From contig OY282370.1 of assembly GCA_958295745.1 (NCBI GenBank), positions 1,226,311 through 1,290,310 of the forward strand: DNA of 64,000 bases, in the 5' to 3' direction. The DNA is from an uncultured Acidimicrobiia bacterium (GTDB taxonomy: Bacteria > Actinomycetota > Acidimicrobiia > Spongiisociales > Spongiisociaceae). The notes beneath the pieces were generated by a model. It saw only the letters and a program-made list of their open reading frames with translations. It ran no database searches and had not been told where the DNA came from. This document shows, piece after piece, positions 12,001 through 31,752 of this stretch; positions within the stretch are counted from its first letter, which is position 1, and each line of letters opens with the position of its first letter. Position numbers and translations under genes: made by a program.

Positions 12001-15000
12001 TACCGGTCAACCGGTTATCGGATAGATCCAGGACGCTCAGGGAGGGCAGCTGGTTCAGAGCGGGGACGGTCCCGGCGATGCTGTTTTCCTGATCGGCGGC
12101 GGACAGGTCCAGGCCGGTAACCCGTTTGGCGCCGTCCGGAGTGGCTACGGTAACCCCCGGCCAACTATCGATGGAGGTGGACCCGTTCCAGTTGCGCAGC
12201 GGGTGTCCGGTGGGGAGGCGGCCGTTGGCCGGGTTGCCGGTCCAGTGATTACGGATCCCCACCAAAACCTTGCATTGCTTGGTCAAGTCGGGGTTGCCCG
12301 CCGGGACCACGGTGGTGGTGTCGCAGATAGCCGGGTCCAACGCGGCGTGGGCGTCGTTGTTGGCGATAGTGACCTCGGCCGAGCCGATCGTGAACGAGGC
12401 CAGAGTTCCGGTGATGGTGAAGTGCTTGTCCGGGGCTACGGCCGCGTCCTCCAAAGTGGTCAGGTCGAATGAGGCGCTGCCGGTGCGCTCACCGGCGGGG
12501 ATGGTCACCGTCTGGCCGGTCACGAGGGTGTATTCCCTTCCGGGCTGTGCGGGGGTGGCGGCGCTGGTCAGGTCCAAAGCGACGGTGGTAGCCGAGCTGC
12601 GGGTGGCGCGGTTGGCCCGGAAGGAGGCGGTGACGGTAATGGTGGTGGTGGAACCCTCCGGCACCGTAGCCGGGCTGACAGCCAGGTCGATGTTGGCCGG
12701 AGCGGTCGCATCGTCGTCGGTGATGATGAGCGAGGTTCCGGCCACCGCCGCCTCGCCGTTGCGGCCGACGATCGATATGGTCTCCTCCGGCTCGGGAAAC
12801 GAGTCGTTGAAGAGCGTGAGGGTGAAGGTTCCGACGGCGGAGACCTGCCCGGCGGGGATGGTGATCTCGAACGGGGTAACCGCCGTGTAATCACCGGCGC
12901 CTCCCTGGACGGCTTCGGCGGTCCCATCGACCACCGATACGGCCACCACCGTGTCGGAGGAGGGCAGGGGCGGCTGGCCCGCACCTCCGAAACCCACCAG
13001 GGAGGCGGTAACGGAAACAGCGGAGGCCGAGGCGCCCTCCGTGTGGGTCTGGGTGTCGACGCTCAGCTCCACCGCCCGGCGGCAGTCCGAAACCGGCCGC
13101 AGGCGGGAAGCGAACGGCCCGTGCGCAAATCCGGCGTCGGTCGGCGAGTCCTCCAGGACTATCCACCGGCTCCGCAGGCCGCTGGGCAGACTCCCGGTGA
13201 GGTCGTTGCCGCAGAAGCTGAACCTCCGCAGGGACCCGCCCGAACCAAACGGCGAGTAGGCCAGACCGCCGATTGAATCCGGTATGACGCCGGTCAAACG
13301 GTTGTCGTCCAGATGCAGCCGCTCCAGGCCGGTGAGCCTTCCCATCGTGGAGGGGATGAAACCGGTCAACAGGTTGTTACCCAGATCCAGCCGCTCCAGG
13401 CCGGAAAGGTTCCCCATCGTGGAGGGGATGAAACCGGTCAACAGGTTGTTACCCAGATCCAGCCGCTCCAGGCCGGACAAAGAACCCAACCCGGACGGGA
13501 TCACCCCCGACAGCTGGTTGTCGGCCAAACTCAGGAAGGTCAGGGAGGTGAGGGCATCGACCCCGGAGGTTATAGACCCCGTCAGGCTGTTACCGCTCAA
13601 ATCCACACTCGTCAAACCGGTCAGAGCGCTCCAAGCCGGAATAGAACCCGACAAACCATTCCCGCTCAAATCCACACTGGTCAAAGAAGTCAAAGCGCTC
13701 CAAGCCGGAATAGACCCCGACAACCGGTTGCCGCTCAAATCCACACTCGTCAAACCGGTCAGAGCGCTCCAAGCCGGAATAGAACCCGACAAACCATTCC
13801 CGCTCAAATCCACACTCGTCAAACCGGTCAGAGCGCTCCAAGCCGGAATAGAACCCGACAAACCATTCCCGCTCAAATCCACACTCGTCAAACCGGTCAA
13901 GGCGCTCCAAGCCGGAATAGAACCGGTCAACCGGTTGTCGCTCAGGTCCAGGCTCTTGAGGAGGGCGCCGAAGTCACCCAGCCAGGTCGGCAGACTCGAC
14001 AGCCGGTTGCCGCTCAGGTCCAGGTTCTCCAACGACAGCAGACCCGTAAAGTTGTCCTCGTCGGGACTCCAGTCCGCCGGTATCCCTCCGGTAAACTGGT
14101 TCCCGCTCAAGTCCAGGCTGACCAAAGCGTCCAAATAACCCAAAACAGCCGGCAACGCCCCCCGTATCTGGTTGTCGCTCAAGTCCAGGCTGGTCAGAGT
14201 GGCGAGCCAATCCAATCCCTCCGGGAAACTCGTCAACCGGTTGCCGCTCAGATCCAAATCAGACAAAGAGTCCAAAGAGGTCATATCCCCCACTTCCGTC
14301 AACCGGTTGCCGCTCAAGCGCAGAACATACAATCCCGTGAAGTTGTCCAGCACCGAGAACGGAAGCACCCCCGCCAGGTTGTTCCCACTCAAATCCAGGT
14401 TGGTCAGATCGGCCCCCAAATCACCGAGGGCGGCGGGGATGGTCCCGTTCACTCCCCCGTCGGAAAGATCTAGCCTCGACACTTCCCCGCTCCCCAACAA
14501 GGTCACCCCCGGCCAGGTGCCGATCAGCCCGGTACCCCACGACCGCAGCTCGTGGCCGCTCGGCAGACCGGCGTTGTCCGGGTTGCCCAGCCAATGGTTC
14601 CTGATTGCGACCAACGTCTCGCAGCTTGCCACCCGGACCGCATTGGTGGACGGACTCGTCACCCACGTACCGTCCGAACAGCCGGCCGGATCCAGGGCCG
14701 CAGTCCCGGAGTCGTTGCCGGCGATGGTGATCACGGCGGGAATGACCGGAGTCGTAGAGCCGGACAGGACGCCGGAGACGGTGATGGTCTCGTCTCCTTC
14801 GGCGATGGCGTCGGGCTTCACGGTCAGGTCGAAGGTGGTGGTCCCGGAGGAGTCGCCTTCGGCGATGGAAATATCAGCCGGGGCGGCGGCGGTGAAGTCT
14901 TTGGACGCCCCCAGCTCGGCGGTTCCGCCCGCCACCGTGACCGTGACCGTATTCCCCCCGACCGGGGCGGTCATCCCGGTGGGCAGGGAAGCGGTGACGG

Positions 15001-18000
15001 TGATAGAAGTAACGGCATCGGCCGCGCCTTCGGTAACCACCGCCGGGCTCACCCGCAGCACCGCCGACGTCGGGTCGGAGGGCGCCGCCGCCGGGTCGGT
15101 GATGGTGAGCCGGGTCGGGTTGACAACCAGCCCGGTTGCCCGGCCGGAAACGGTCAGGGTCTCCGGGCTCTCGCCGGCCCCGTCACCGAGTATGACCAAG
15201 CTGAACGGAACGGAGACGCTGGTCGAACCGGCGGGGATGGTCAGGGTCAGGTTGTCCCGGGGCAGGAAGTCGACCCGGGAGGCGGCCGTATCCCCGGCCG
15301 CTGCTCCTACTGATATGTTGATCACTGTGTCCTGGGTGCGGGCGGCGGTGCCTACCGGGAAGGCGGCCTGCAGGGCGGCGGTGAACGTCCGGGACCCGGA
15401 GGCGGGTTCGACGGCGGTGGCCGGGGACAGGGACAGATCGACGACGGTGGAGACGGGGTCGCTGGCCAGGATGGTGAAGGCGGCCGGTTTGACCACGTAC
15501 CCGGCTGCCGACCCGGTGAGGGCCACGGTTTCGGCGGCCTCGGATATCCGGTCGTCCCGCACGGTTATGGCCAGGGCGCCGTCGGCGGTGCGGGTGTTGG
15601 CCGGGATGGTGATGACCAGGGTTTGGGGGGCGGTGTAGTCCCCGGCCTCTGATTCATCCACTCCGGTGGTGGTCGGGTCATCGGCCGGGTTGCGGGCGGC
15701 GGAATCCTCGGCGCCTCCCACCGTAACCGTAACCGTGGTGGGCGAGTCGGGCGGGGTTACCCCGGCTTCGAAGGCCGCGGTGACCGTGGTGCTCACCAGC
15801 CCGGCGGTCTCCGCCGCCTCATCGGGAGAGATGCTGAGCTCGATCCCGGAGTCGTTGTCGGTGATGGTGAGGGAAGCGTTGTCCACCGGAACGACAGCCC
15901 CGGTGGAGATGGTTCCCACCAGGCTGATGGTCTCGTCGGGCTCCCCGGTCACCAGATCGTCCACCACCTCCAGACCGAAGGAAGCGGAACCGCTCCGGCC
16001 GCCGGGCGGGATCACGATGCGCACCGACTCGGCGGACGTATAGTCCTGCCCCCGAACGGCGGTGCTGAGCAGGACGGCTTGGCCCCCTATGGCCACATCC
16101 ACCACCGTCCGGGTGGTGACCGCAGACGCCCCCTCCGGGAAAGCCGCCGTGACGGTCACCACCCGGGCTCCGGCGTCCTCCGCCAGGCTGGTCTGCGCCC
16201 CGGAGGTGGCCGGGTCGGCGTCGGCGGTCAACACCAGCCGCTGGGGGGAGTCGTCGGCGTCGGTGAGGGTAAGGGTGCGGCGGGCGGCGTCCACCGTCAA
16301 CGGGGCCGTTGCGGAAGCGGCCACGGTCAGGGTCTCATCCGGTTCGTCCAGCTGGTCATCCGTACCGGCCAGAACAAACGCCGCCGACCCCTCGTTGCTG
16401 CCGGCCGGGATGGTGAGCGTGAAGTCGGCCACCACCTCATAGTCCGTCCCGGACACGGCCGAGTCCCGCTCCACCGCCGGGGTATCCGGATCATCGGCGT
16501 TGCCCACCGTGAAAGAAACCACCGTGTCCCGGCTCAGCACCCCGCCGTCGGCCAAGGAAGCGGCTACCTCCACCCCGATATCTCCGGCGCTCTCCTCCGC
16601 GGTAGTCGGGTTCAGGGTCCATTCCACCTCAGAGGGGGCGCCGCCGTCGTCGTCCACTATCCCTATCTCCGCCCCGATCACCGCCACCCCGACGGCCGAG
16701 CCGACCACAGACAAGGTCTCCACCCCGGCCTCCGCATTCGAGTCATCGACCGGGGTCAGGGTCACCACCGTCGAGGCGCTCCGCTTCCCGGCCGGAATCG
16801 TCACCGACAGCACGGTCGGGTTGTCCTTGTCGGTTATAGCCGCCTGCGTGGACCCCACCGAACAGTCCCCCCGGCCCAGGCCGACGCTGCAGTCACGGGT
16901 CGTCCCGGAAACAGTGAATGTCTCCACCCCTTCGTATTCTCGATCCTCGAAGATCACCATCTCCAGGTCGACCGAGGCGCTGTTGTCCCCGGCCGGGATC
17001 ACCAGCTCCTGGGTCCTCCCGCCCACCACCTCATAATCCCCGCCGGAGGCCAAAGAACCGATCTGCGCCGTATCCCCGGCCGCTCCCACCCGCAGACTCA
17101 CCCGCGTCGGCCGGGTGCTGGTCACCCCCGGGGCGAAGGAAGCAGTAACCGTCACAGTGGGATCTGATATCTCCTCCAACGGAGTGGCCGCCCCGGTGGT
17201 CAAACGCACCCGCCCGCTGGGCGGCGGCGCCTGGAAAGCCTGGCCGTTCGGATCCTGGAAGGTGAAATCTCCGGTGGCGCCCAAAGCGGCGGTTCCGCCC
17301 ACCAGGGTGAAGAACACCTCGGTCTCCTCCCCCGACAGGTTCCTGCCCAAACCGCCGTATGCGGGCCGGGTGGCGGTGATGGTCACCTCGGTGGCCCCGG
17401 CGTCCTCCGCCGCCAACTTCGGGGAGGAGCTCAACGTCACCCCCCGGGCGCACGCTGCCACTTCCTGATAAGCCGCGGCCGACCCGGAGGGGAATCCGAC
17501 CAGCTCCACCCCGGAACGAAGCAGGGCGGGCAGGGGCCCGGTGATCCCGTTGCCGCAGAACCCGAACCGGGACAACGAACCGCCCCCCGACGCCGCCAAA
17601 TTGCCCCACGCAGCCGGAACGGAACCGGTGAGCCGGTTGCCCGAAACCAGGAGAACCTCCAGCTTCCTGCTGCCTCCCAGGGCGGCGGGAAGGGAACCGG
17701 TGATCCGGTTGCCGGACAAGTCCAAGTGGGTGAGCCCGGCCATCGCCTCCAAACCGGTGGGAAAAGCGGCGGACATTCCCACATCGGACATGTCCAGATA
17801 AGTCACCTTGTTCCACTGGGACGGCCAGCCTGTACTTATCCCCAAAGTGGAGGCGCCGTTCGAGTGGGTATCCGGATACAGGTTCGGGTTGCCGCCCACA
17901 TCGAAATGGGTAATCTCGGTCAACCCTATGAGGGCGGCGTCAAGAGCCCCGGTCAACCGGTTGTCACCCACCGCCAGCCTCTTCAACTTGGTCAGATCAC

Positions 18001-21000
18001 CCAGCTCGCCGGGGATGGAACCGGTCAGCCGGTTCCCGCCCAAGTCGAGCATCCGCAGCTCGGTGAGATCCCCCAGGGCGGTCGGGATGGGACCTGTCAG
18101 CAGGTTGCCGGACAAATCCAATCTCCGCAGACTGGTCAAATCCCCCAGACCGGCGGGGATGGTTCCGGTGAGCCGGTTGCCGGACAAGTCGAGCCGGGTC
18201 ATATCGATGAAGTCGGCAAAAGCAGCCGGGATGGGGCCTCGCAGCCGGTTGCCGGACAAGTCCAGATGGATCAACCCCGACCCGGTCCAGGCGGCGGGAA
18301 TCGAACCGGTGAGCCGGTTGTCGGCCAAGTGCAGATGCTGCAGATCAGACAACCGGGACACCCAGGCCGGGAACGTACCCGACAGCCGGTTGCCGGACAA
18401 CCGCAGCTCTTCCAGGCCGGACAACGACGCCCACGAGGACGGAATCACTCCCGACAGCCGATTGCCGCTCAAGTCCAAATGGGTAAGCGACGTCAGCGGC
18501 CTCCTCCAACTAGGTAGCCCTCCCGAGAAATCATTGCGGCTCAAGTCCACATATTCCAACAAAGCCGAATCCGACAACCAGGTAGGCGCCGCACCCGAGA
18601 ACCCGTTACCGGACAGATCCAGATGAACCATTTCCCGCCAGTCCAACCCGTCGTTGATCGGCCCCGACAAAAGATTGTTTCTCAAATCCAGATAAGACAG
18701 ATCCCACAAACCCAGCCGCACATCACTGTCCGTCGGGTCGGTACGCGGACGGAACGCCGTTGGGATCCCCCCCGTAAGCCGGTTGCCCCCCAAATCCAAA
18801 TGAGACAACCCCAACAAACCGCCCCACCCGGCCGGAATGCCGCCGGAGAACCCGTTACCGGACAGATCCAAATGAACCAGCTCCGACATACCTGACAATG
18901 CCGGCAAAGAACCCGACAAGCCGGCGCCGCTCACGTCCAACACCTCGATGCCGGCGGCGATGCCGGTGGGCCAAGCGGACAGCGAGCTGCCTCCCACCCG
19001 CAGCTCCGTCAAACCCGTCCAGGAAGTCACATCCAGAGCCCCCAGCGACAGGTCATTGCCCGACAGGTCCAAATGGGTCAAACCGGACGACAACACCCCG
19101 GCCGGAACGGCCCCGGTCAACCGGTTGCCCCCCAAATCCAAACTGCGCAGCTCCGACAAATCACCGATCTGAGCGGGGACGGAGCCCGCAATCTCGTTCG
19201 GCGCCGCCTCGGCGCTGGGAGGAATCGGATGAGCATCGGCTATTGCATATGTATAGATAAAATTCGGAAATACATAATTACGGTTATAGGTGAGCGACTG
19301 CGGCGGAACCAACCCCTCCAGGCCCTGGTTGTGCAGGTTCAAGCCCACCACCCGCAACACGCCCCCCACCTCCTCCACCGTCACCCCCGGCCAGCTCCTG
19401 ACATCCCGGGTCTCGAACACGCTCCGGGCCTGCTGGCCTGAGAAGACTAAGTTCTGCCGCCCAGTGTCCAGCCTCCTCACGCCCCAAGTCCGCAGCACAT
19501 GGGTCTCATCCACACCATTGGTAGCCGAATCGTCCGCCGGCAAACCCTGATTGGCCGAGTTGCCGGTGAAGTGATTGCGGACGGCCACCAACGCCTGGCA
19601 GTCGGCGATCAAACCGGTGTTGGTCGTGTCCTCCACATAGGTCCCGTCCGCGCAGAGGGCCGCGTTCAAGTCGGCGATGCCGCTGTCGTCGTCGGTGATG
19701 GTGATGGTGAACTCGCTAGGCGTCACAGTGAACGCGGACGAGGGGCGAACCGCCCGTAGGATGACCGTCTTGTCTTCCTCGACGTTCGTGTCCTGGGGAA
19801 TAGCGATCGTCACGTCCGCGGTACCCGACGACTGACCGTTCGGTATGAGCAAATTGACAGTGGCCAAGGCGGTGTAGTCGTTGTCGGCGGAGCTGGCGGT
19901 GCCGTCCACCAGATTCAACTGGACAACGGTGCCGGCGAAGGTCGTCTGACCGGCCAGGAACGAAGCCGTAACCGTAACCGTCTGGTCACTGCCCCCCTCC
20001 GCCACCACGGTCTGGTCGACGCTCAGCTCGATGACCATGATGCTGTCGTCGTCGGTGATGGTCAACACCGCCGGGACCACCGCCAACGGCCCGGCGGGGG
20101 CGGAGGCTGTGCCGGACGGGCTGAGAACCCGCACCGTCTCACCCGGATCGTCCACCCCGTCGGCGGCCGCGGCCATCTGGAAGGTTCCGGTGTGGCTGGA
20201 GGCGCCGGCCGGAATGGTGATCGTGAAATCGGGGACGGCGGTGAAGTCGCTCACCGCCCCGGCGGTGCCGGACGCCACCGAAATCGGCACTACCACCCCG
20301 GCGGCGGGCAAAGCAGGCTGGTTCAAGCCCGCTCCGAAACCGGTCAGGGCGGCGGTGACCTCGATCTCCGTTGACATTCCCTCTTTCGCACTGGTCGGGG
20401 AAAGGGTGAGAACGACCCTGCTGTCCCCATCCAGGATGGCCGCCTCGGACCCGAACACCAGCTCCCCGACGGCAGCACCGGACACGACCAACGTCTCCGG
20501 CCCCTCGAACCCGGCGTCATCCGCCGCGGTAACGTTCACCGCGGTCGAACCCGAGCGGCGGCCCGCCCCGATGACCACCGTGAAGTCCCCCACCGCCGTG
20601 AAGTCGACCCCCTCCGTCGCCGTCCCCGCCCCCACCGACACGGCAACCGTGGTGTCGGCGCCCGGCAACGCAGGCTGCCCCACCCCTCCGTAACCGACCA
20701 GCTCGGCGGTGACGGTGACCGCGGTGGTCCCTCCTTCGGGTACCCCGACCGGGCTCACCCGCAGCGCAATCCCCCGGCGGCAGCCCTCCACCCCCGTTGT
20801 CGCGTCATAACCGGGCAGGGTGACCCCGGAGGCCAGACCGGCGGGCAGGGCGCCGGTAAAGCCGTTGCCGCAGAACCCGAATTCGGTCAACGCCGTCAGC
20901 GAACCCAACCTAGACGGAATAAAACCCGTCAACTGATTATCACTCACATCCAAACTCGTCAACGCCGCCAGCAAACCCAACCCGGACGGAATCGAACGGG

Positions 21001-24000
21001 TCAACCGGTTACCGCTCAAATCCAAACTCGTCAGAGCAGAAAGCGAATCCAACCCAGACGGAATAGAACCCAACAACCGATTATCACTCACATCCAAACT
21101 CGTCAGAGCAGCCAGCAAACCCAACCCAGACGGAATGGGACCCGTCAACCGGTTACCGCCCAAATCCAAACTCGTCAGAGCAGAAAGCGAAACCAACCCA
21201 GACGGAATAACACCCGACAACCGGTTATCACTCACATCCAAACTCGTCAGGGCTCTCAACCCCGTCAAAGACAGAATCGAACCCGACAACCGGTTACCGC
21301 CCAAATCCAAACTCGTCAACGCAGAAAGCGAAACCAACCCAGACGGAATAACACCCGTCAACCGGTTGCCGCCCAAATCCAAACTCGTCAACGCAGTCAA
21401 AGAAGTCAGATCACCCGGAAGGGTCCCCGCCAAACTCCCATCGGACAGGTCCAGCCCGGTAACCCGCCCCCCGCTGACCGTCACCCCCGGCCAAGTCCCC
21501 ACCAAACCGCTCCCCCACGACCGCAGCTCGTGGTCACTGAGCAGACCGGAGTTGTCCGGGTTGCCCAACCAATGATTGGCGACAGCTACCAGCGCCTCGC
21601 AGTCATCGCTCAACGTCGAATCCGAGGCAGCCGCCCAGGTGCCGTCCGAACACCCGCCGGTCCCCAAAGAAGAACCCGCCGCGTCGCTGCCCGCAATCGT
21701 CACTGCGGTCGGAACCACCACCCGACCGGATGCCGTCCCGGCCACGGTGATCACCTCGGCGCCCTCCGCATCCGAATCATCGACCACCGCCAGCGTGAAA
21801 TCAACCGATCCGGCGCGCGCCCCCGCCGCAATGGTTACCGCAAACGGATCAGGGACAACCGTGGTGAAATCCTCATCCGACCCCTCCTCCGCCTGGCCTT
21901 CCCCCGAACCCCCCGCCGCCGTCAACACCACCGTGATGGGTCCCCCGGCAGGAGCGGCCTCCCCCGACGGCAAAGCCGCGGTAACCGTAACCACACTCGA
22001 ACCGGAACCCTCCTCCACCACCCCCGGAGAAACCGACAAACTGACAGCCGTGTCATCGTCATACAGAACAAACGACGCCGGCACCACATTGAAGGTAGGA
22101 GCCGACCCCGAAAACACCACCGACTCCGAACCCTCCCGACTCCGATCATCTATCGGAGACAACACCAGATCCAAACCGGCGCTCCGCCGGCCCGCCGGAA
22201 TGACGACCTGGAACGGCCCCGCCCCGCCCTCACCGTCGACCAACGAATAATCCACCCCGGCCGCCGCCGATCCCCCCGCCGTAGACAAGGTAACCACCGC
22301 AGCCGACCGCAGCCGACTCACGCCCTCCCGCAAAGTAGCCGTAACCCGCACCGGCGCCGGACCGCCGTCCTCCGCCGCCGACGAACGACTCACCGACAGC
22401 AAGATATCCTCCGCGTCGTCATCCACGATCGTCACCGTCGGATAACCCGCCGCCCAGGTGGAAAGGATCCCGAATCCGGTGTAAATCGGTGATTCGACCT
22501 CGAACGCAGCCCCCGCCTCGATGATCAACCTCTCTGCGCCCTCCGCCGCCGCATCATCGACCACGGTCAACTCGAAAGAAGCCGAGGCTTCATTGGACCC
22601 CGCCGGAACAGTAATGGTGAAGCTGCTCGGAGCAGCCGAAAAATCGCCGCTCCCGGCCGTGTCCGCCGCCACCGACAGCGGGATCACCCGCGCGGTCGTG
22701 CGGGTCGAATCGCTCGGAATCACAGCGGTGACCGTCACCGTGGTAGTCCGGGAAGAACCCCCCGAACCGCTGTCCTCGCTGACCCGATGCGGGCTGACCG
22801 ACAAAGTGACCCGGTTGTCATCATCCTCGATGGTGACCGTGTGGGACGAACCCGTCATCCCCGGAGCGGACGCCGACACCGAGAAGGTCTCGTCCCCCTC
22901 CGCCAAGTCGTCATCGATTACGAGCATCTCGATAACACCGGAGACGGTGCGGGCATCTGTGGGCGACTCGATCTCCAGCTCGATCTCCCTCGCCGCCCTT
23001 GCCAGCACGAAGTCGCTCCCCGCCGCCGCCGTCTGGCCCCAGGTGGCCGTTCCGCCCTCCACGCTCAAGGTAATGGTGGTTTTGCTGGTGAGCGGGGTTA
23101 CCCCCGCCGCCAAACCCACCTCGTAACTCAACCGAGCTTCAGCGGTGCCCTCGGCTAGAGCAACCGTGTCCAGGCTGAAGAACAACACATCGTCGTTGTC
23201 GGTGATGATGACATCGGCCGCGCTGACCGCAAAGCCCACCAGACCGGTATTCGTTCCCGGCGGGATAGCACCAACCGCCGGACCCGGAGGCGGGGCGATC
23301 TCCCGCCCGATGATCCGCACCGTTTCATCACCCTCCACCACAGTGTCATCGACCACTGTCAGGTCGAAGGAACCGGTCGCCTTGGTCTCGCCTGCCGGAA
23401 TGGTGATGTTGAACTTGGCGACCGCCGCGAAATCATCGGGGGCGGTGGCGTACTGGGCGAAGTCGGCCAGCTCCACCTCCACCACCGTCGGGTTGGTGCG
23501 GGCCGCCTGGTCGGCATATTCGGCGGTGACCGTCACCGTGGTGGCGCCGCTGTCCTCCTCCACCCGCAGCACATCCGACCGCAGGTTGATAGCCGGAGCG
23601 ACCGGGTCGGGTGCGGTGTCATCGTCGGCGATGGCGATAAAAGAGGAGGCGATGGTGAACCCGGCGGCCGAACCGGAAACCTTTATCGTCTCGTCATCCG
23701 TGTCGTCGTCGGAGGCCGTAACCAGGGTGAACTCCTTGGTCACCGGGTTGGAGGACGAAGTGAAGGGGGCCTGCTCGCTGGCCGTGATGGTGACCGTGGT
23801 GGAGACGGCGGTGAAATCAGCCGACTCGGCCGTACCCCCGGCGGCGGTCCCATCCGCCGACAAAGACACCGACACCGCAACGTCCTCGGTGATCGGATCC
23901 TCCCCCGCCGCCAGCGACACCGACGCCGTCATCGCGGTGGACGCATCCTCCGCCGCCCGGGAGGGGGTAACCGCCAAGGTCAACGCTTTGGGCAAAACGG

Positions 24001-26017
24001 TCGGGGTGGGGTCGGCGGTGGGGTCGGCGATGGACAGGGCTATGGAGGCGGAACGATATACGGACACCGCGGAGAAGGTGTCCGCTTCGATGGTATCGCC
24101 CGGGGTTTCGGGGTCCGGCACGTCCGGGTCCCGCTGCGAAACCGACAACACCCCCAAGGTAACGGTCTCCCCCGCCTCCGCCGCGGTGTCCGCAAACGCG
24201 TTCAGGGTGATGTCGGCCGAACCGCTGCGGGAACCCGCCTCGATCTCTATATCGAAATCCGGGATGGTCTCGTAGTCGGCCCCCGCCGTGGATTCGTCCG
24301 CCCCCGCCGTCGCCGTCGACGACCCCGACAGAACCCCCGCCCGCACCTTCAGATCCCGGTCGGGGGCGTCGGCGCCGGTGGGCAGGGAGGCGGTTACCTC
24401 GATGGTTTCCGATGAACCCTCGTCAGCCGAGTCCGGATCGGCGGAGAGCGTGATCCAATTGTCGTCGTCGGTGATGGCCAGGTAAACCGGATAAACATCG
24501 AACCGGTCCGATTCTGCCCGCACGCTCACCCGCTGGTGGCCCTCCGGGGCGGTGTTGTCGGTGGGGGTGAAGGTGAACGTGCCGCTCCCCGACCGGGCGT
24601 CGGCCGGGATGGTGACGGTGAACTCGGGCACCGCCGTGAAATCACCGGCGTCCCCCTCCACGTTGACGGTGACCTCGGTGGCCTCGCTCGATGTAAAACC
24701 CTCCGGCAGGGAAGCGGTAACGGTTACGGTCTGGGCCCCGCCCCCCTCGGCTATCTCCGTCTTGTCCAAGGCCAGCTGGATGGCGGCGTCGTCTTCGAGG
24801 ATGGTCAAGGAGGCGGAGGCGACCGCCAAGCCGGGATCGGAGTTGCCCCCGCTTATGGTCAGGGTCTTATCGGGGCTGGCAGCCGTGTTGTCGGTGATGG
24901 GGATGCTCAGGGTTGCGGTGCCTTCATAGTGATAGGCGGGGATGGTGAAGGTGAGAGAAGCCGGGCGGGTGTAGTCGGTCCCCGCCGTTGCCGTATCGTC
25001 GTCCGCCCCCGCCGTGACGGTCACCCAGGTGTCCTCGGTCCGGCGCTTCCCCTCCGGGAAGGCTGCGGTCACCTCGATCGAGGCGGTCCCTGTGTCCTCG
25101 TCCACCTCGGTCGGGTCCAGGCTCAGGCTGATGGAGCCGGGGGCGAATACCTCGTCCTCGTCGTCGGCAATGTCGATCGACGCCTCGGTAACGGAACCGT
25201 TGCCCAGCCCGGAGGAGGAACCGGTCACCTGGACCGAGCGGTCGGCGGTCTGATTGATGAAGTCGTCCTTCGGCGCCAGGTCGAATGTGGTGGAGCCTGA
25301 GGTCCGACCGGCGGGGATGCTGATGCTCAAGGCCGAGTCGTCCACCGTGTCGAAGTGGGTTCCCTCCGTAGTGCCCGCCCCCGCCTCCACCGCCAGGTTC
25401 ACGGTAGTTGCGTTCGGCGAGGAATGATCGAGGGCGGCGGTGACCGTGATCGTCTCCGAATCGCCGTTCTCATCCACCTCGTCCGGCGAAACGCTGAGCG
25501 CGGCGGAGTTGTCGCCGTCCACGATGGTGACCAGCAGCGGGGTTATCTGTAGCGAGGTGTCCGACGAGAGGGAGCCCGTGATGCGGAGCACCTCCGGGCC
25601 CTCCACCACCGCGTCGGCAAGGACGTTTATGGTAACGGCTGCGCTCTTCTTGGTGCCGGCGTCCTCGGTTCCATCAACGGTAATGGTATTGGAGACGGAT
25701 GAGTAGTCATTGGAGGAAGCCTGCGCCGCGGGCAGGGAGGAGAGGTCGCCGCCGCCATCGGTTACCGCGAGCTGTATGGTACCCGCGGGGAGGTTTGCCG
25801 ACAGTTCGGCTTCCACATCTACGCTGAACCCGGTGCTGCCGCTCGAAGGCTCCTGCAGGGAGGAATCATGAGCGCTGTCCGCAAACCGGAGCGTAATACT
25901 CCCGGTGGACTGGGCCTGCGCCGCCTGGTAGGGCAAGTTGGGGAACAGCGAACCCACCAGGCCGAACGCGACCAAGAGCAACAGAAATCGATATCCGGGT
26001 TTCCGGCTGATCATCAT
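1..26017 (-). CDS. Giant secreted Calx-beta / leucine-rich-repeat surface protein (C-terminus cut by window edge)
   Basis: One frame stays open from the ATG at 26017 to base 1 with no stop, giving at least 8,672 residues. The N-terminus (MMISRKPGYR, then LLLLVAFGLVGSLF, then an AQAQS-type cleavage region near residue 36) is a Sec signal peptide. Most of the chain is repeats of about 100-110 residues ending in ITDDD/ITDND and carrying TVTAxF, TIPAGxxSG and DDxxxEGxET segments, the Calx-beta pattern (Ca2+-binding beta-sandwich of adhesins and the Na/Ca exchanger). I estimate some sixty copies by eye. Four capped LRR blocks interrupt them at about residues 1452-1752, 2116-2862, 3772-4316 and 4559-4819. 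Likely an exported adhesin or surface fibre. No SLH, LPXTG or other anchor is visible because the C-terminus is missing. A second in-frame ATG follows at 26014. The best Shine-Dalgarno-like stretch, AAGGGAG, lies about 16 nt upstream, further than usual. Confidence 0.93.
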   Translation of the reverse strand, partial: MMISRKPGYRFLLLLVAFGLVGSLFPNLPYQAAQAQSTGSITLRFADSAHDSSLQEPSSGSTGFSVDVEAELSANLPAGTIQLAVTDGGGDLSSLPAAQASSNDYSSVSNTITVDGTEDAGTKKSAAVTINVLADAVVEGPEVLRITGSLSSDTSLQITPLLVTIVDGDNSAALSVSPDEVDENGDSETITVTAALDHSSPNATTVNLAVEAGAGTTEGTHFDTVDDSALSISIPAGRTSGSTTFDLAPKDDFINQTADRSVQVTGSSSGLGNGSVTEASIDIADDEDEVFAPGSISLSLDPTEVDEDTGTASIEVTAAFPEGKRRTEDTWVTVTAGADDDTATAGTDYTRPASLTFTIPAYHYEGTATLSIPITDNTAASPDKTLTISGGNSDPGLAVASASLTILEDDAAIQLALDKTEIAEGGGAQTVTVTASLPEGFTSSEATEVTVNVEGDAGDFTAVPEFTVTIPADARSGSGTFTFTPTDNTAPEGHQRVSVRAESDRFDVYPVYLAITDDDNWITLSADPDSADEGSSETIEVTASLPTGADAPDRDLKVRAGVLSGSSTATAGADESTAGADYETIPDFDIEIEAGSRSGSADITLNAFADTAAEAGETVTLGVLSVSQRDPDVPDPETPGDTIEADTFSAVSVYRSASIALSIADPTADPTPTVLPKALTLAVTPSRAAEDASTAMTASVSLAAGEDPITEDVAVSVSLSADGTAAGGTAESADFTAVSTTVTITASEQAPFTSSSNPVTKEFTLVTASDDDTDDETIKVSGSAAGFTIASSFIAIADDDTAPDPVAPAINLRSDVLRVEEDSGATTVTVTAEYADQAARTNPTVVEVELADFAQYATAPDDFAAVAKFNITIPAGETKATGSFDLTVVDDTVVEGDETVRIIGREIAPPPGPAVGAIPPGTNTGLVGFAVSAADVIITDNDDVLFFSLDTVALAEGTAEARLSYEVGLAAGVTPLTSKTTITLSVEGGTATWGQTAAAGSDFVLARAAREIELEIESPTDARTVSGVIEMLVIDDDLAEGDETFSVSASAPGMTGSSHTVTIEDDDNRVTLSVSPHRVSEDSGSGGSSRTTTVTVTAVIPSDSTRTTARVIPLSVAADTAGSGDFSAAPSSFTITVPAGSNEASASFELTVVDDAAAEGAERLIIEAGAAFEVESPIYTGFGILSTWAAGYPTVTIVDDDAEDILLSVSRSSAAEDGGPAPVRVTATLREGVSRLRSAAVVTLSTAGGSAAAGVDYSLVDGEGGAGPFQVVIPAGRRSAGLDLVLSPIDDRSREGSESVVFSGSAPTFNVVPASFVLYDDDTAVSLSVSPGVVEEGSGSSVVTVTAALPSGEAAPAGGPITVVLTAAGGSGEGQAEEGSDEDFTTVVPDPFAVTIAAGARAGSVDFTLAVVDDSDAEGAEVITVAGTASGRVVVPTAVTIAGSDAAGSSLGTGGCSDGTWAAASDSTLSDDCEALVAVANHWLGNPDNSGLLSDHELRSWGSGLVGTWPGVTVSGGRVTGLDLSDGSLAGTLPGDLTSLTALTSLDLGGNRLTGVIPSGLVSLSALTSLDLGGNRLSGSILSLTGLRALTSLDVSDNRLSGVIPSGLVSLSALTSLDLGGNRLTGPIPSGLGLLAALTSLDVSDNRLLGSIPSGLDSLSALTSLDLSGNRLTRSIPSGLGLLAALTSLDVSDNQLTGFIPSRLGSLTALTEFGFCGNGFTGALPAGLASGVTLPGYDATTGVEGCRRGIALRVSPVGVPEGGTTAVTVTAELVGYGGVGQPALPGADTTVAVSVGAGTATEGVDFTAVGDFTVVIGAGRRSGSTAVNVTAADDAGFEGPETLVVSGAAVGELVFGSEAAILDGDSRVVLTLSPTSAKEGMSTEIEVTAALTGFGAGLNQPALPAAGVVVPISVASGTAGAVSDFTAVPDFTITIPAGASSHTGTFQMAAAADGVDDPGETVRVLSPSGTASAPAGPLAVVPAVLTITDDDSIMVIELSVDQTVVAEGGSDQTVTVTASFLAGQTTFAGTVVQLNLVDGTASSADNDYTALATVNLLIPNGQSSGTADVTIAIPQDTNVEEDKTVILRAVRPSSAFTVTPSEFTITITDDDSGIADLNAALCADGTYVEDTTNTGLIADCQALVAVRNHFTGNSANQGLPADDSATNGVDETHVLRTWGVRRLDTGRQNLVFSGQQARSVFETRDVRSWPGVTVEEVGGVLRVVGLNLHNQGLEGLVPPQSLTYNRNYVFPNFIYTYAIADAHPIPPSAEAAPNEIAGSVPAQIGDLSELRSLDLGGNRLTGAVPAGVLSSGLTHLDLSGNDLSLGALDVTSWTGLTELRVGGSSLSAWPTGIAAGIEVLDVSGAGLSGSLPALSGMSELVHLDLSGNGFSGGIPAGWGGLLGLSHLDLGGNRLTGGIPTAFRPRTDPTDSDVRLGLWDLSYLDLRNNLLSGPINDGLDWREMVHLDLSGNGFSGAAPTWLSDSALLEYVDLSRNDFSGGLPSWRRPLTSLTHLDLSGNRLSGVIPSSWASLSGLEELRLSGNRLSGTFPAWVSRLSDLQHLHLADNRLTGSIPAAWTGSGLIHLDLSGNRLRGPIPAAFADFIDMTRLDLSGNRLTGTIPAGLGDLTSLRRLDLSGNLLTGPIPTALGDLTELRMLDLGGNRLTGSIPGELGDLTKLKRLAVGDNRLTGALDAALIGLTEITHFDVGGNPNLYPDTHSNGASTLGISTGWPSQWNKVTYLDMSDVGMSAAFPTGLEAMAGLTHLDLSGNRITGSLPAALGGSRKLEVLLVSGNRLTGSVPAAWGNLAASGGGSLSRFGFCGNGITGPLPALLRSGVELVGFPSGSAAAYQEVAACARGVTLSSSPKLAAEDAGATEVTITATRPAYGGLGRNLSGEETEVFFTLVGGTAALGATGDFTFQDPNGQAFQAPPPSGRVRLTTGAATPLEEISDPTVTVTASFAPGVTSTRPTRVSLRVGAAGDTAQIGSLASGGDYEVVGGRTQELVIPAGDNSASVDLEMVIFEDREYEGVETFTVSGTTRDCSVGLGRGDCSVGSTQAAITDKDNPTVLSVTIPAGKRSASTVVTLTPVDDSNAEAGVETLSVVGSAVGVAVIGAEIGIVDDDGGAPSEVEWTLNPTTAEESAGDIGVEVAASLADGGVLSRDTVVSFTVGNADDPDTPAVERDSAVSGTDYEVVADFTLTIPAGSNEGSAAFVLAGTDDQLDEPDETLTVAASATAPLTVDAARRTLTLTDADDSPQRLVLTADADPATSGAQTSLAEDAGARVVTVTAAFPEGASAVTTRTVVDVAIGGQAVLLSTAVRGQDYTSAESVRIVIPPGGRSGSASFGLEVVDDLVTGEPDETISLVGTISTGAVVPVDNASLTITDNDSGIELSISPDEAAETAGLVSTTVTAAFEAGVTPPDSPTTVTVTVGGAEDSAARNPADDPTTTGVDESEAGDYTAPQTLVITIPANTRTADGALAITVRDDRISEAAETVALTGSAAGYVVKPAAFTILASDPVSTVVDLSLSPATAVEPASGSRTFTAALQAAFPVGTAARTQDTVINISVGAAAGDTAASRVDFLPRDNLTLTIPAGSTSVSVPFSLVILGDGAGESPETLTVSGRATGLVVNPTRLTITDPAAAPSDPTSAVLRVSPAVVTEGAADAVTSITVTASLPTGMTAPVGGNTVTVTVAGGTAELGASKDFTAAAPADISIAEGDSSGTTTFDLTVKPDAIAEGDETITVSGVLSGSTTPVIPAVITIAGNDSGTAALDPAGCSDGTWVTSPSTNAVRVASCETLVAIRNHWLGNPDNAGLPSGHELRSWGTGLIGTWPGVTLLGSGEVSRLDLSDGGVNGTIPAALGDLGADLTNLDLSGNNLAGVLPFSVLDNFTGLYVLRLSGNRLTEVGDMTSLDSLSDLDLSGNRLTSFPEGLDWLATLTSLDLSDNQIRGALPAVLGYLDALVSLDLSGNQFTGGIPADWSPDEDNFTGLLSLENLDLSGNRLSSLPTWLGDFGALLKSLDLSDNRLTGSIPAWSALTGLTSVDLSGNGLSGSIPAWSALTGLTSVDLSGNGLSGSIPAWSALTGLTSVDLSGNRLSGSIPAWSALTSLTSVDLSGNGLSGSIPAWSALTGLTSVDLSGNSLTGSITSGVDALTSLTFLSLADNQLSGVIPSGLGSLSGLERLDLGNNLLTGFIPSTMGNLSGLERLDLGNNLLTGFIPSTMGRLTGLERLHLDDNRLTGVIPDSIGGLAYSPFGSGGSLRRFSFCGNDLTGSLPSGLRSRWIVLEDSPTDAGFAHGPFASRLRPVSDCRRAVELSVDTQTHTEGASASAVSVTASLVGFGGAGQPPLPSSDTVVAVSVVDGTAEAVQGGAGDYTAVTPFEITIPAGQVSAVGTFTLTLFNDSFPEPEETISIVGRNGEAAVAGTSLIITDDDATAPANIDLAVSPATVPEGSTTTITVTASFRANRATRSSATTVALDLTSAATPAQPGREYTLVTGQTVTIPAGERTGSASFDLTTLEDAAVAPDKHFTITGTLASFTIGSAEVTIANNDAHAALDPAICDTTTVVPAGNPDLTKQCKVLVGIRNHWTGNPANGRLPTGHPLRNWNGSTSIDSWPGVTVATPDGAKRVTGLDLSAADQENSIAGTVPALNQLPSLSVLDLSDNRLTGNIPTVLPGALTSLDLSGNQLTGNIPTALPSGLTALDLSGNQLTGGIPAVLGSRTGLTSLDLSTNELTGTIPAALGRLTALTSLNISENQLSGTIPSALGGLTSLTAFSFCNNGLTGPLPTALRSGVTLDVAQTAYEGVEDCASTVTLSVDPATLSEGSTSSVTLTASLPSGREAPSGGLRLEVTTAGGTATAGADFAPVHQVITIPAGEESAAAQLSLTAPEDAAREGAETFSITGVAPGAGYYVSPAVVTIPANDPTAASGVVWSVNPDRFQERDTTTVYNATMTISVPDGQSASGSNHLLYPWLTLPGSSAIGAYFGFNPADYGVLGISRNTAIVLPAGQHSVTRNIQVRVLADNFAEGDETFAFFPNCPRTPCARPPGPTVTITDADLVADLTVDTDGGTAGTQTTVAEGVTSRTVTVTATLPSGVTAQRTLSLPLTVAPGTAQAADFTAASLGTITIASGASSGTATFDLTVNSDSDQLEREETIVVSSSADGFTIDPAVITIPVHDRILTVDVNPISINEEQNNPQVSVGPVRTENGYAVPTAINNIYARVGSRDVQFNIVARDSSGGIPVAVSVGQNYSDQVVNTNPRTISITVRSINAPTYAFRHRVVTIVDDEWGRRPAGIDLAVDKPAVSEADGVVEVTVTASFTREGGNPAGLDVATAVPLEIRPVTASAGVDYRLVDASGDPISAAPTISIPSGQTSATASFRLEVIGDAVQEGDESLWVAAVSTPSPNGFVFEDGVDPAEITIADRHPIILTFSPAAVSEGGGGRNFTDILVTASLPQGSSAPTRDLVIRNVRFVDGTADSGDYTASPTLTLTIPAGWFDSVGRQIRVEVLDDILAEGSETIRLVGDPPYGYSLVDGVLTITDDEGAAPTGVQLELAPASVSERSAPQQVGVTARLGTWIAAPVTHTYTDSNGVEQTIPCPLDEFGVGRCSYSLSGGDQEVVNLPTFVPSTVALPTDTTVRVSLEAAAGRAGLVPAVPGADFVPPAPFTVTIPAGQIHASASFSLDVVADGLVEPIETFRVDGTVNGLTLYDRPVQILASGSRAGIALSASPGSVAETDGTVKVTVTADLSSVQPVNADTRITVSVGGGSGDTTTEGTDYGTVPDFTIVIPAGRSSGSAAFSLSLRDDLVAEGSETLVISGSDPMQWTSAGYVPLVLPWSITAGQVEITDDDGDAVLEMTLDTAAVEESSGTTEVGVTVGFAGGKARTEDTRVTVSVTGAADGGEEGKASAGADYTAVADFVVVIPAGQNRAEGKFDFAVVGDRLVEGAERVTVAAVAGQHVLYRELTITDDDRAPTDLVLTLIPALLTVEPATLPIPEGSAGRTYFVTVDSPPDQGLVDPDDPPTVTLSMGGGTASANDFTVSYLPPGGKPPVLATITAAADNRVEGVESLVVSGTSSGGENVIPAVLTLKDPDGAAAPDGIDLTFGRSEVGEGDGTVRVAVRAQLYCRQAGTCPVLTEDRTVELELSETLSVAELDDDFTLGSASITIPAGSMVGAGELELRVVDDRLVEGNESVTVGGAAVGYQVDPATLLIVDDEEAAGELDLRFSRGVVDESAGTVPLVLTAGWPARLSVLTDTEVTVFLGGGSAAEGVDYELLERSQFTLTIPAGRSSASIEVGELSLVDDGVAEDTETFEAFGLAQQENAEVPQRYKVNSAVLRVTDDDPVSVKLTVDTPQVREAPERSVTTEFALTPAEVAVTVTAALTGRADGDTVVRDRETVVRVSVGAEGDGAVPGEDYSVAGLDAEGYLTIRIPAGEVSADGSFRLRVVDDDVAGETEYTATPRPGRSARIDVSRTEWLSIVGSVARSGESDLEVADTRVEIWDLTDQMPTVLDFTLSPVKVVEGDADHTVRITATAHLGTVEQGKIVLSSDLVVPLVLSGETDSDGNALLGWAQAGVDYGTPTQVTPAPVLGQAAGVMMVTIPAGQLSGAVTFDLPIMGDNITESAVVLGESGSEWVRVGTTLEGWTADPVILEITDDDPAPALRLQLDKESVAEGAGEQTVNVTARLVDADGAPGVFPADVPFELRLIGDASDVEEARFAADGVASSLYDYEVLPPPPLQPGAAPVRTPGDWINIFTFGRIPALTEGSLVEVGFNVDRIGALYTSDVPVVLSVGAAGDTASGSDVELVSARTGLHHSGTSLPVSDGRVAVTIRRQGSGAPLRMTLRVVDDAEWEGAETFTISGTTSNCPQSGSCSVGSVQFTIPGSDAPSPPPALPDETPVNTDGEWVDIEVVGSVLAEGSFAGSSVLAEGSVVDVDLSISRRSTFHTDTTVKVTVGAEGDSATNRDYRIVSARQGETNRPIFNRGFSVDITDIEVRATLRLRVVDDAEHEGAEVFTLVGSTDDCPQLGASCTVGSVQLAIPGSDTPPSLLNRRSVVIPAGESSVTTSFNSFELEVLDDNLDEGEGEDIVVEAAGLPPVLGKSGSPSARLRIVDDDVASNVIALEVTPSGAGSGSGWVSEGAGSDLALLVALAFPEGAAARLTDTVVTLSAEDGSAESETPGPDDPDDPSDYSLVFKDTDGSGPLGVGEAVISAGDTGSAIWLRSPSKLDFDVFDDSAVEGDETFVIRGTAAGFEVGSDTVTIRDSEPSAIVLTFTSGGGRRELELDEDVNAQLADLLDDDGNPGVAGPLAVEVRAAFPSSVDDDDLPVTDTVITLSGAEGKLREWDGEVSRAASSSDYAVQSVVLNTRNDPLTLTIPGGARSAVGTVRVSLADDKAVETTENLQIVGSTSDYSVTPAVIHIADNDSALPAYDLSVSPPFVAEGAAAPEAVTVTARTKGDARIGVDTVIQLALSGTEPGGPDYLPVAEEDLRLVVPADAASGSVTFDLTMVDDQVAEGVARVGGQAVYDAVQVSGTAVSPVGGEALVVNAVGQQSRVVILDNDVVQRTIRLSVVSPAEALREGSDDNRVEVRAAFVSADGPVRPVDTRVRVQVGDGDSEGTTEARAADDYEFVDYVVVVIPAGEQAGEASFDLTLLDDRVSEPDEQITLLGKVVGPYDLPYPDYPDRKFWVVPAALTITDNDIAPAFATLQVAPTPSDEAVGGAAAWTGMVREGDEVTDFTVTASFGPGAVRSVDTVLTLRLGGRGPSGGIPIVHDGRSILGPDGQPLTTPRIPGDTALIGTDFNILRAGETTPVPNDFTLPLTIPAGRTTGSATFRLRVEDDTIANEDPETLTVYSAAPAPAAGNPEFNIMPASITIIDNDQVSEIDLTLLDAEDGDDLSVLAESAGWVNVYIKASYPGTAVLAADTVVGVTVEDGTADGKGVDYWDRTYGDPNSNTEETPLPLTIPAGQNSVTLPALLQVEIIDDRDLEDDETINVTGVVTGVQSTEFTVNPDQLTIEDNDLPVALNVDTDPGTSGLQTVLAEAGDIIEVTVTAAMPADLPIQPGGGTITLSLKETSDSNKADQGGDPGDDFQLVDASGDELTSVDVTLPDGSRTSAPVTLRIKVADDRTVEPDETLAVSGTSMEFSNVVDTKVTIVDDDVDLSVDDGSVDEGDTDTVIVTAAVGEAAPAGGHTVALSVSDAGDYTAEAADYSSTPASTPFQVTIPAGSKTATAAFDLTAVADDRAEDAETVGVTGVLSGFQVDPAVVSIEDQDRGITLTFIDSSDNAVASIGEDDGATALRVKATLDADATDLAEDVTVTVTVGDTGGTADLGATQDYTRSSSSVTVTIQAGQRSADSGTVTITPNSDNRAEDNETIRFTGSAAGFTVADTDLPIIDPDSKVLLVLSDTAVDEDDNPSLTITAKFDASVTSSSVNSAIAVAVTVTPAAANGADADDYSYTPTTVTIPVGGFTSGPQTLSLTINDDDQVEDGTGSKNEEGLVIDGNPPAGSPDIDPVTLLIADDDHQLAWTLTQSGSAYTGGTEGDSLNTVSAQANFAATSSELTAPLTVTLDAATSGDATAEAGDLTSPGTPLTVTIPAGAVSSNTAALTGYGFTQDTVAELPETVLAGGTAGDYTVDDTTLTITDDDSVISLSLGSTVAE
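11560..12340 (-). repeat. LRR block 4 of the giant protein (shortest block)
   Basis: Encodes about residues 4559-4819. The N-cap has CKVLVGIRNHWTGN, LRNWNG and SWPGVTV. Roughly seven LRRs follow (LDLSGNQLTGNIPTALP type), then the C-cap FSFCNNGLTGPLPTAL with partner Cys in VEDCAST. Calx-beta repeats resume at once and continue to the window edge. Confidence 0.85.
13070..14700 (-). repeat. LRR block 3 of the giant protein
   Basis: Encodes about residues 3772-4316. The N-cap has CETLVAIRNHWLGN, LRSWGTG and TWPGVTLL. LRRs of the LDLSGNRLTG type follow, including a run of nearly identical 23-residue units. The C-cap has FSFCGNDLTGSLPSGL, with a partner Cys about 40 residues on (SDCRR). The order N-cap, LRRs, C-cap, Calx-beta matches the other three blocks. 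Confidence 0.85.
13594..13930 (-). repeat. Five tandem 69-bp LRR units
   Basis: Five 69-bp units encode the 23-residue LRR SGSIPAWSALTGLTSVDL followed by SGNGL. Copies differ at only a few bases; the shared segment ctccaagccggaatag recurs every 69 bp. The high DNA identity, not just protein identity, indicates recent tandem duplication or gene conversion. Copy number is therefore a likely site of strain variation. Confidence 0.9.
17430..19670 (-). repeat. LRR block 2 of the giant protein (largest block)
   Basis: Encodes about residues 2116-2862. The N-terminal cap has CQALVAVRNHFTGN followed by WPGVTVEEV. It is followed by over twenty LRRs such as LDLSGNRLTGSIPAELG-like units, less uniform than block 1. 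The C-cap reads FGFCGNGITGPLPALL with a partner Cys in VAACARG, then the next Calx-beta repeat begins. An insertion between N-cap and first repeat (LTYNRNYVFPNF and following) is unique to this block. Confidence 0.85.
20760..21660 (-). repeat. LRR block 1 of the giant protein (capped plant-type LRRs)
   Basis: Encodes about residues 1452-1752. It opens with a cap containing two cysteines and the motif CEALVAVANHWLGN, followed by LRSWG and TWPGVTV. About ten 24-residue LRRs follow with the consensus LTSLDVSDNQLTGxIPSxLG. It closes with FGFCGNGFTGALPAGL and a second Cys (VEGCRR), then runs straight into the next Calx-beta repeat. The LTGxIP core is the plant-specific LRR class. Several DNA units are near-identical 72-mers, so expansion looks recent. 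Confidence 0.85.
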
Positions 26018-26070
26018 TTGGGGACCGGTTCCACTCCCTTGGATTGCCGCGGGGCGTTCGACCACCGCAC

Positions 26071-26105
26071 ACTATAGCCTATTCCCCCAATCTACCCCCC
26101 CCCCC
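26071..26105 (-). promoter_or_regulatory. Putative promoter of the giant gene with a G11 tract at the -35 position
   Basis: On the minus strand a TATAGT -10 element lies at 26076-26071. Directly upstream, 18 nt separate it from an uninterrupted run of 11 G (26105-26095), which occupies the place of the -35 hexamer. Transcription would start near 26064, leaving a leader of about 47 nt before the ATG at 26017. A second AT-rich element, TATAAT, lies at 26155-26150. No experiment supports either; the assignment is by pattern only. Confidence 0.4.
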
Positions 26106-26236
26106 GCAGTTGGGAGTGGAAATATTTCAAAGTGCCTCTCCAACCTGGGATTATAGCCAGCAGCAACAGCTTCGGCTGGTGTAGCGGTCGTCAGCGCCGG
26201 GTCGGGGGCGATGCGGGCTGTTCGGCTGCCGCAGAC

Positions 26237-27007
26237 CTATCGGGAGTACATGGCGTCCAGCACGGCGGCCAGCTTCGTATCCAGGTAGCGGGAGCGGGCG
26301 GTCCGGATGAAGTGATCCTCGATGCCGTGCAGGGCTTCGGCGATGCCCCCGGCCATGGCCCCGATCGTGTCGGAGTCGCCTCCGATGGATATGGCGTTGC
26401 GCACCCCGTCCTCGAAGCTGTCGGACTCCAACGCGCAGATGATGGATTCGGGCACCGAGCCCTGGCATGACACGTCGAATTTGTAATCCGGCCGTATCTC
26501 GTCCACAGATCTATCCATGTCGTAGCCGTACTCCTCGGCGATGACGTCACGGATGGCCTCGGCGGGGCGCCCGTTCAGAGCCAGCCAGACGGAATGAGCA
26601 ACCGCCAGAGCACCCTTGATGCCTTCCGGATGGTTGTGGGTGATCTCGGTGATGCGCTCTGTTGCAGCCAGCGCCGCGTCCAGATCCCCCCGGTTCAGAT
26701 ATGCGGCGGGCGACACCCGCATCCCGGCGCCATTGCCGTAACTACAGTAGGGCTCAGGGTGATCGGAATCCCTCCACCACCTGAACCAGCGTCCGTAACC
26801 CCTCCCGTGATACTCACGGCACCACGCCTGCAAAGTGGTTGCCGGATCCCGTCCGTTCATCAGAATGTCCGCCATAGCAACCGTACAAACCGTATCATCG
26901 GTGAACCGGCACCAGTCATGCCAGAACTCGAAGTCCTTGCTCTTGCAGTCCTTCCCCCTCCCCTCGAATCGAGACCCAACAATGTCCCCAATGACCGCTC
27001 CGTACAT
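26237..27007 (-). CDS. ADP-ribosylglycohydrolase family protein
   Basis: A 256-residue protein of the ADP-ribosyl-[dinitrogen reductase] hydrolase (DraG/ARH) family, which removes ADP-ribose from proteins or from O-acetyl-ADP-ribose using two Mg2+ ions. Visible family motifs are GDIVGSRFEG near the start, FTDDTVCTVAMAD (metal-binding TDDT at 36-39), GNGAGMRVSPAAYL, and GGDSDTIGAMAGGIAEA near the C-terminus (metal-binding DSDT). The ATG at 27007 is chosen over one 30 nt upstream because AGGAGG lies 7 nt before it. It lies upstream of the giant surface gene on the same strand (219-bp gap) and is divergent from the HigA-like gene. No ADP-ribosyltransferase partner is visible. Confidence 0.88.
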   Translation of the reverse strand: MYGAVIGDIVGSRFEGRGKDCKSKDFEFWHDWCRFTDDTVCTVAMADILMNGRDPATTLQAWCREYHGRGYGRWFRWWRDSDHPEPYCSYGNGAGMRVSPAAYLNRGDLDAALAATERITEITHNHPEGIKGALAVAHSVWLALNGRPAEAIRDVIAEEYGYDMDRSVDEIRPDYKFDVSCQGSVPESIICALESDSFEDGVRNAISIGGDSDTIGAMAGGIAEALHGIEDHFIRTARSRYLDTKLAAVLDAMYSR

Positions 27008-27068
27008 AGGTTGTCCTCCTACTCCTAATCCCAGCATAGGAACCCCAGAAAATGTAGCATCTACCTAT

Positions 27069-27377
27069 ATGTCCATCGACTACCCCACCCACCCAGGTCT
27101 CAGCATCAAGGAAGGATGCCTAGGAGACGAGCTGACCGTAACCGAGGCCGCCCACCTCCTCGGCGTAACCCGCCGCACCCTATCCCGGATAATCGACGGG
27201 CGCTCCAGCATCTCCCCAGAAATAGCGATCCGCTTAGAGAAAGCCGGATGGTCCGACGCAGACTTCTGGATGCGCCGCCAAGCCTCCCACGACCAAGCGC
27301 AAGCAAGCAAACACAAGACCAGACCACCGTCAGCCCCCACCAAACACCCACCCCGACAACCGAAGCGACCCAGCTAG
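27069..27377 (+). CDS. higA: HigA-like XRE-family antitoxin / regulator, orphan
   Basis: A 102-residue protein opening with MSIDYPTHPGLSIKEGCLG, the HPG..L.E.L...G pattern of HigA antitoxins. A helix-turn-helix follows (LTVTEAAHLLGVTRRTLSRI, then SSISPEIAIRLEKA and a WMRRQ segment). The last third is a basic, proline-rich tail that HigA proteins usually lack. HigA normally represses its operon and neutralises the mRNA-cleaving toxin HigB, encoded just upstream. No HigB reading frame exists here; the upstream gene is the divergent ADP-ribosylglycohydrolase. No clear ribosome-binding site precedes the ATG, so it may be leaderless. The stop codon lies inside the start of repeat copy 1. Confidence 0.8.
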   Translation: MSIDYPTHPGLSIKEGCLGDELTVTEAAHLLGVTRRTLSRIIDGRSSISPEIAIRLEKAGWSDADFWMRRQASHDQAQASKHKTRPPSAPTKHPPRQPKRPS

Positions 27378-31678: not shown

Positions 31679-31752
31679 GTATACGTCCCGGCGCGGCGGC
31701 CCGATGTGCGGCCTGGTGCTGCGGCCTAGTGTGCGGCCCCGATGGGCCGGCC

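Follow-up and report, generated by a model that had tools for sequence, protein, structure and literature searches.

Giant gene and its upstream region

The stretch of DNA analyzed in this study (the window, 64,000 nt) lies on the chromosome contig, C1, of an uncultured Acidimicrobiia bacterium and carries on its minus strand a giant gene (2..26017) that runs off the window. The most likely start was ATG 26017, from which the protein begins MMISRKPGYRFLLLLVAFGLVGS and is signal-peptide-like; a GTG (26063..26065, minus strand) in the ORF list, 5 nt past the hexamer TATAGT, is a possible leaderless start. Counted from GTG 26065, the part of the gene inside the window encodes 8,688 aa, and its whole open frame in the genome is 10,646 aa. 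Pfam matches placed Calx-beta domains and leucine-rich repeats (LRR) in the first 2,000 residues and, beyond the window, S-layer homology (SLH) domains in the last 400 residues at the C-terminus (E 1.5e-23). Judged by this domain content and the signal-peptide-like start, the product is predicted to be surface-exposed, and the original prediction of a giant surface protein gene was upheld in that sense. The preceding gene (26237..27037, minus strand) encodes a protein of the ADP-ribosylglycohydrolase family (PF03747, Pfam). Also near the giant gene, on the minus strand, were a 2,095-aa Calx-beta/SLH ORF (36143-42430), with a G7 run 20 bp upstream of the start codon, and a 1,068-aa fn3/SLH ORF (29195-32401).

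On the minus strand, a G11 tract, the proposed slippage site (26095..26105; C11 on the plus strand; C1:1252407 in the C1 tract listing), was followed by an 18-bp spacer containing a G5 run (26077..26094) and by TATAGT (26071..26076), a candidate −10 element matching at 5/6 positions in a hexamer scan. Hexamers at spacers of 14-22 bp never matched TTGACA at more than 2/6 positions, and it was therefore fair to say, as had been claimed, that the tract replaces the −35 element; the described order of G11, 18 bp, and TATAGT was confirmed as well. The placement of the tract at the −35 position depends on this single −10 candidate, and a consensus scan of 25900-27200 found neither a sigma-70 promoter nor a terminator. 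An in-frame TAG (26074-26072, minus strand), read by hand and in agreement with a first start at 26065, lies inside TATAGT; the tract therefore cannot shift the frame of the giant gene, and a reading-frame switch was ruled out.

Further elements surround the tract. Upstream of it is an AT-rich block, TTTGAAATATTT, any role of which would be a guess, and a perfect TATAAT (26150..26155, minus strand), an alternative −10 for which no −35 was found by eye and which, if used, would make the tract part of the 5′ leader. A perfect 10-bp inverted repeat, with its upstream arm at 26112..26121 (TTCCACTCCC on the minus strand) and its downstream arm at 26029..26038 (GGGAGTGGAA on the minus strand), encloses the tract, TATAGT, and the ribosome site of the giant gene, the downstream arm overlapping a Shine-Dalgarno-like GGGAG; the repeat is weak, with a chance probability of 0.03-0.05. 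An Rfam scan of 25900-26400 gave no match, and the single-strand fold of the tract region was no better than that of shuffled sequences (z 0.62, DNA parameters).

A distinct class of G tracts on the chromosome

The window contained three G9 matches, compared with a mean of 9.15 expected from dinucleotide shuffles, and by that null the run was unsurprising. The shuffles overstate real runs, and this count was dropped as the deciding null in favor of the run-length distribution. Within 383,278 bases of C1, a sample made up of stretches picked around tracts and other loci, G/C runs of 5, 6, 7, and 8 numbered 1110, 263, 45, and 2. Across the whole of C1 (3,007,243 bases) there were 40 runs of at least 9, of which 7, 6, 20, and 7 had lengths of 9, 10, 11, and 12, and none was longer. 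A geometric fit to lengths 5-8, which overestimates length 8, predicted 20 runs of at least 9 and 0.9 of at least 11, compared with 40 and 27 observed. Because run lengths collapse by 8 and then show a second mode at 11, the G11 tract belongs to a distinct G9-12 class and exceeds the homopolymer length expected for its genome.

In all 40 C1 tracts the G residues lay on the G-rich strand of the tract's own chromosome arm, the G-rich strand presumably being the leading one. The minus strand carried the Gs of all tracts left of C1:1.26 Mb (22/22) and the plus strand those of all tracts beyond 1.49 Mb (18/18); the change of strand, at 1.25-1.50 Mb, agreed with the GC skew of both arms. Shorter C1 runs of 7-8 leaned to the same strand in 40/47 cases, indicating that the strand bias of the tracts is mostly general skew; given that background lean, the probability of the 40/40 placement was 0.0016.

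Tracts at surface and defense genes

The 40 tracts were sorted by hand, using the ORFs around each. Seventeen lay at the starts of 13 secreted or SLH surface genes and seven inside four restriction-modification (R-M) or defense genes, and the G9-12 tracts of this genome are thus concentrated at surface and restriction/defense genes, which are the usual targets of slippage switches. The remaining 16 were located away from any surface or defense gene and had no evident switch role; they included several past the ends of genes, such as dnaE-like, UvrD-like, and MIP genes, and two that preceded lipoprotein-like genes by ~250-300 bp. Tracts within 250 bp upstream of a start, or up to 75 bp inside it, were found for 12/39 SLH ORFs vs. 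0.17 expected, or for 6/33 once paralogues were collapsed; the 39 ORFs were derived from 58 domain matches, a list that does not include the window's own gene. An upstream tract was present for three of the five Calx-beta ORFs longer than 2,000 aa, 77, 172, and 191 bp from the starts of the 10,646-, 9,515-, and 5,055-aa giants, respectively, and the other two (2,947 and 2,149 aa) had no tract of at least 9. The tract of an LRR-SLH protein gene was 14 bp from its start.

Tracts were also present at seven near-identical SLH/Ig-like paralogues, four of them in a tandem array (C1:2732000-2750000). The promoters of these 7/9 close SLH paralogues read GGTTGC-G10-12-(T)AGTTATTGT and then a −10 resembling TATAAT or TACAAT, which was of the extended type (TGn) in 6/7. 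One of the remaining two paralogues had no run, and the other had an interrupted run and read TTGCGG, 17 bp, and TATGAT when counted by hand. TTGCGG matches TTGACA at 3/6 positions, and the spacers from it to the −10 in the seven SLH paralogues were 17, 18, 19, 19, 19, 20, and 20 bp. Among the internal evidence, these differences pointed most strongly to a tract length that varies and alters the spacing, as seen between paralogues rather than alleles. The 5,055-aa giant had a perfect TTGACA followed by N8, G11, and TATCTT (spacer 19), and none of the hexamers up to 45 bp from the tract of the 9,515-aa giant resembled a −10. The tract of the window's gene lay 18 bp from its candidate −10, vs. 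9-10 bp in the SLH paralogue type. The genes of the tandem array (L071) are SLH/Ig-like surface genes of ~4 kb each, and 3/4 of its promoters carried a second G9-11 tract ~105-140 bp further upstream.

Among the defense genes, a type ISP R-M gene with an ISP coupler and a Type_ISP_C domain (Pfam) was split into two frames at a G10 (C1:256589), the PADLOC profile PDLC03597 continuing across the split from 16-513 in the upstream ORF to 517-1391 in the downstream ORF. A PDC-M33A defense-candidate gene was similarly split at a G11 (C1:154576; profile 3-99, then 109-444); a relative at C1:1496694 kept one frame through its G11. A type IIG R-M gene (C1:2281052) was open in another frame past its tract, and its upstream part had no profile match. 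Such frame splits could be mimicked by an assembly length error. The type ISP R-M gene at C1:253566-256598 (L114) contained four G tracts, one splitting the helicase part and three at the C-terminal specificity region, and the second half of a Type_ISP_C domain was encoded directly upstream (L114:10203-10982), an arrangement hinting at specificity switching.

Tracts in related genomes

In two genomes of a sister genus (G012 and G013), a G10 occupied the aligned place ~60 bp before a giant Calx-beta gene; the DNA around it was 89% identical (~10% divergence), and no −10 was evident after it. The giant gene of another genome, G001, had no G or C run of at least 6 in the 1,600 bp around its start. 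The 28 loci with the best SLH matches in 14 other genomes of the family (L135-L148 and L150-L163) contained no G run of at least 7 and a single C7, and among the 30 SLH loci compared, tracts were found only in the pair from the source genome (L134, L149). The tract-free loci of the 14 relatives and of G001 suggested that the tracts are lineage-restricted.

The 40 genomes searched included no other genome of the same genus. Scans of viral contigs with the two promoters and the protein found no relative, a search of phage records gave no match, and a scan of genome contigs returned only distant SLH proteins, from an Oscillospiraceae MAG and Salsuginibacillus. Six WhiB matches in the source genome, shared among 14 controls by Corynebacterium rings only, pointed to Actinomycetota. 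Raw counts of G10+ runs in relatives (at least one in 32/59 genomes, and in 14/15 of family f1 including the source genome) were unusable, because many were at the ends of contigs or in unusual G/C clusters resembling short-read artefacts.

Proposed mechanism and alternative explanations

We estimate at about 0.6 the probability that the promoter region of the gene for the giant SLH-anchored protein contains, in G11, a contingency tract prone to slippage; this tract is probably a member of a group of on/off switches of a kind known from other bacteria. Replication slippage would add single Gs to the tract or remove them, altering promoter geometry, i.e., how far the −10 lies from upstream sequences, and the giant gene could thereby be strongly expressed, weakly expressed, or silent in a given cell. 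We infer that G11 slips and that TATAGT serves as the −10, and likewise which way expression is affected. With TATAGT as the −10, slippage would keep GGGGGG at the −35 position, leaving core spacing the same and changing only the upstream distance. The phase-variable promoter switch originally predicted was supported in part and indirectly, by the membership of the tract in a G9-12 class found at surface and defense genes and by tract lengths that differ between paralogues. The core spacing, which would stay unchanged, spoke against it, as did a promoter unlike the SLH type, the 16/40 C1 tracts away from surface and defense genes, the loci of relatives with no such run, and the G runs peaking at 9-14 in the contaminant-like contigs C2, C3, C4, and C8 of the assembly. 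These contigs (L103-L109 of the source genome, G000) had lower G+C, short ORFs, a G9+ run every few kb, and different flanks, and they probably belong to another organism binned with the genome; C2 and C3 have a repeated stretch in common.

The tract may instead be transcribed from a promoter at TATAAT (26155-26150), with G11 and the nearby G5 in the 5′ leader, where tract length would act on mRNA structure, on a G-quadruplex, or on the inverted repeat covering the Shine-Dalgarno-like site. The perfect hexamer upstream of the tract agrees with this explanation, as do the repeat spanning tract and ribosome site and the G10 of the two related species, which precedes the start by ~60 bp with no evident −10 after it. 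Since the hexamer has no −35 by eye, the fold does not surpass that of shuffles, and the repeat is itself within reach of chance, we regard a transcribed tract as unlikely. Slightly less likely again is neutral instability, by which runs on the G-rich strand would lengthen beyond 8 and stabilize at ~11 wherever selection permits, chiefly outside the coding sequence of housekeeping genes. Such growth would account for the 40/40 strand placement on both arms and for the 16/40 tracts without a surface or defense gene; the enrichment at SLH gene starts, the position between promoter elements in the SLH paralogues, the tracts within R-M coding sequence, and the tract kept in two related species speak against it.

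Errors in assembling homopolymers are a genuine concern for the tract lengths, and the length mode may be partly technical (platform), because the gap and the second mode recur in the foreign-looking contigs; database G-tract lengths can moreover be wrong, according to the passages of PMC9187656 on such tracts. It is nevertheless highly improbable that the tract lengths, and the class in part, are artefacts of sequencing or assembling long homopolymers, as artefacts would not cluster at SLH and R-M genes, and the G10 loci of G012 and G013 come from other assemblies. Extending the slippage-prone contingency tract to the whole chromosome, we tentatively propose, at somewhat less than even odds, a phasome of ~40 tracts (G9-12, G on the presumably leading strand, set point ~11) that would jointly vary a set of giant and tandemly duplicated SLH coat proteins by promoter spacers and several phage-defense genes by frame.

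Comparison with known systems and significance

Slippage switches have been studied mostly in host-associated pathogens and commensals. In the Bordetella fim promoters, a homopolymer replaces the −35 element upstream of the −10 and changes the distance to upstream sites. The window's homopolymer likewise lies upstream of a candidate −10 at the −35 place; unlike in fim, no activator site is known at its promoter. In Neisseria meningitidis, the porA, fetA, and opc tracts lie between the −10 and −35, according to the passages of PMC2791445 on these genes. The two cases have in common a homopolymer in the −35/−10 region of a surface protein gene. The porA-type layout, a tract between a recognizable −35 and −10, is not that of the window's tract, which lies at rather than between these elements; it was closely matched, in outline, by the SLH paralogues (with a weak TTGCGG) and the 5,055-aa gene (with TTGACA). 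N. meningitidis also belongs to another phylum.

Among actinomycetes, the pilus switches of Bifidobacterium breve resemble the present case in having G10-G11 tracts at surface genes, and the relevant passages of PMC9187656 report such tracts as mixed within one culture (37% G11, 59% G12). As described there, the tested tracts differ in being within coding sequence, acting by frame, and having had their slippage measured; the authors also mention further tracts in promoter spacers. In Streptomyces coelicolor, pglX carries a G tract in a phage-defense methyltransferase gene, according to the part of PMC4365076 that deals with it, similar to the R-M genes split here in concerning an actinomycete phage-defense gene; as given in that part, it differs in being a coding tract of 7-8 G and not at a surface gene. 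Literature searches on phase variation in Acidimicrobi- and on homopolymeric tracts with S-layer homology turned up no account of such a set.

The paralogous promoters, with spacers from 17 to 20 bp, provide a natural series for relating tract length to expression, and the fact that the tracts keep strictly to the G-rich strand opens a role of replication direction to testing. If the proposed switching is true, single cells would differ both in their coat and in their phage defense, and bet-hedging by slippage would extend to another part of the phylum, in an uncultured actinomycete with giant SLH proteins and restriction systems.
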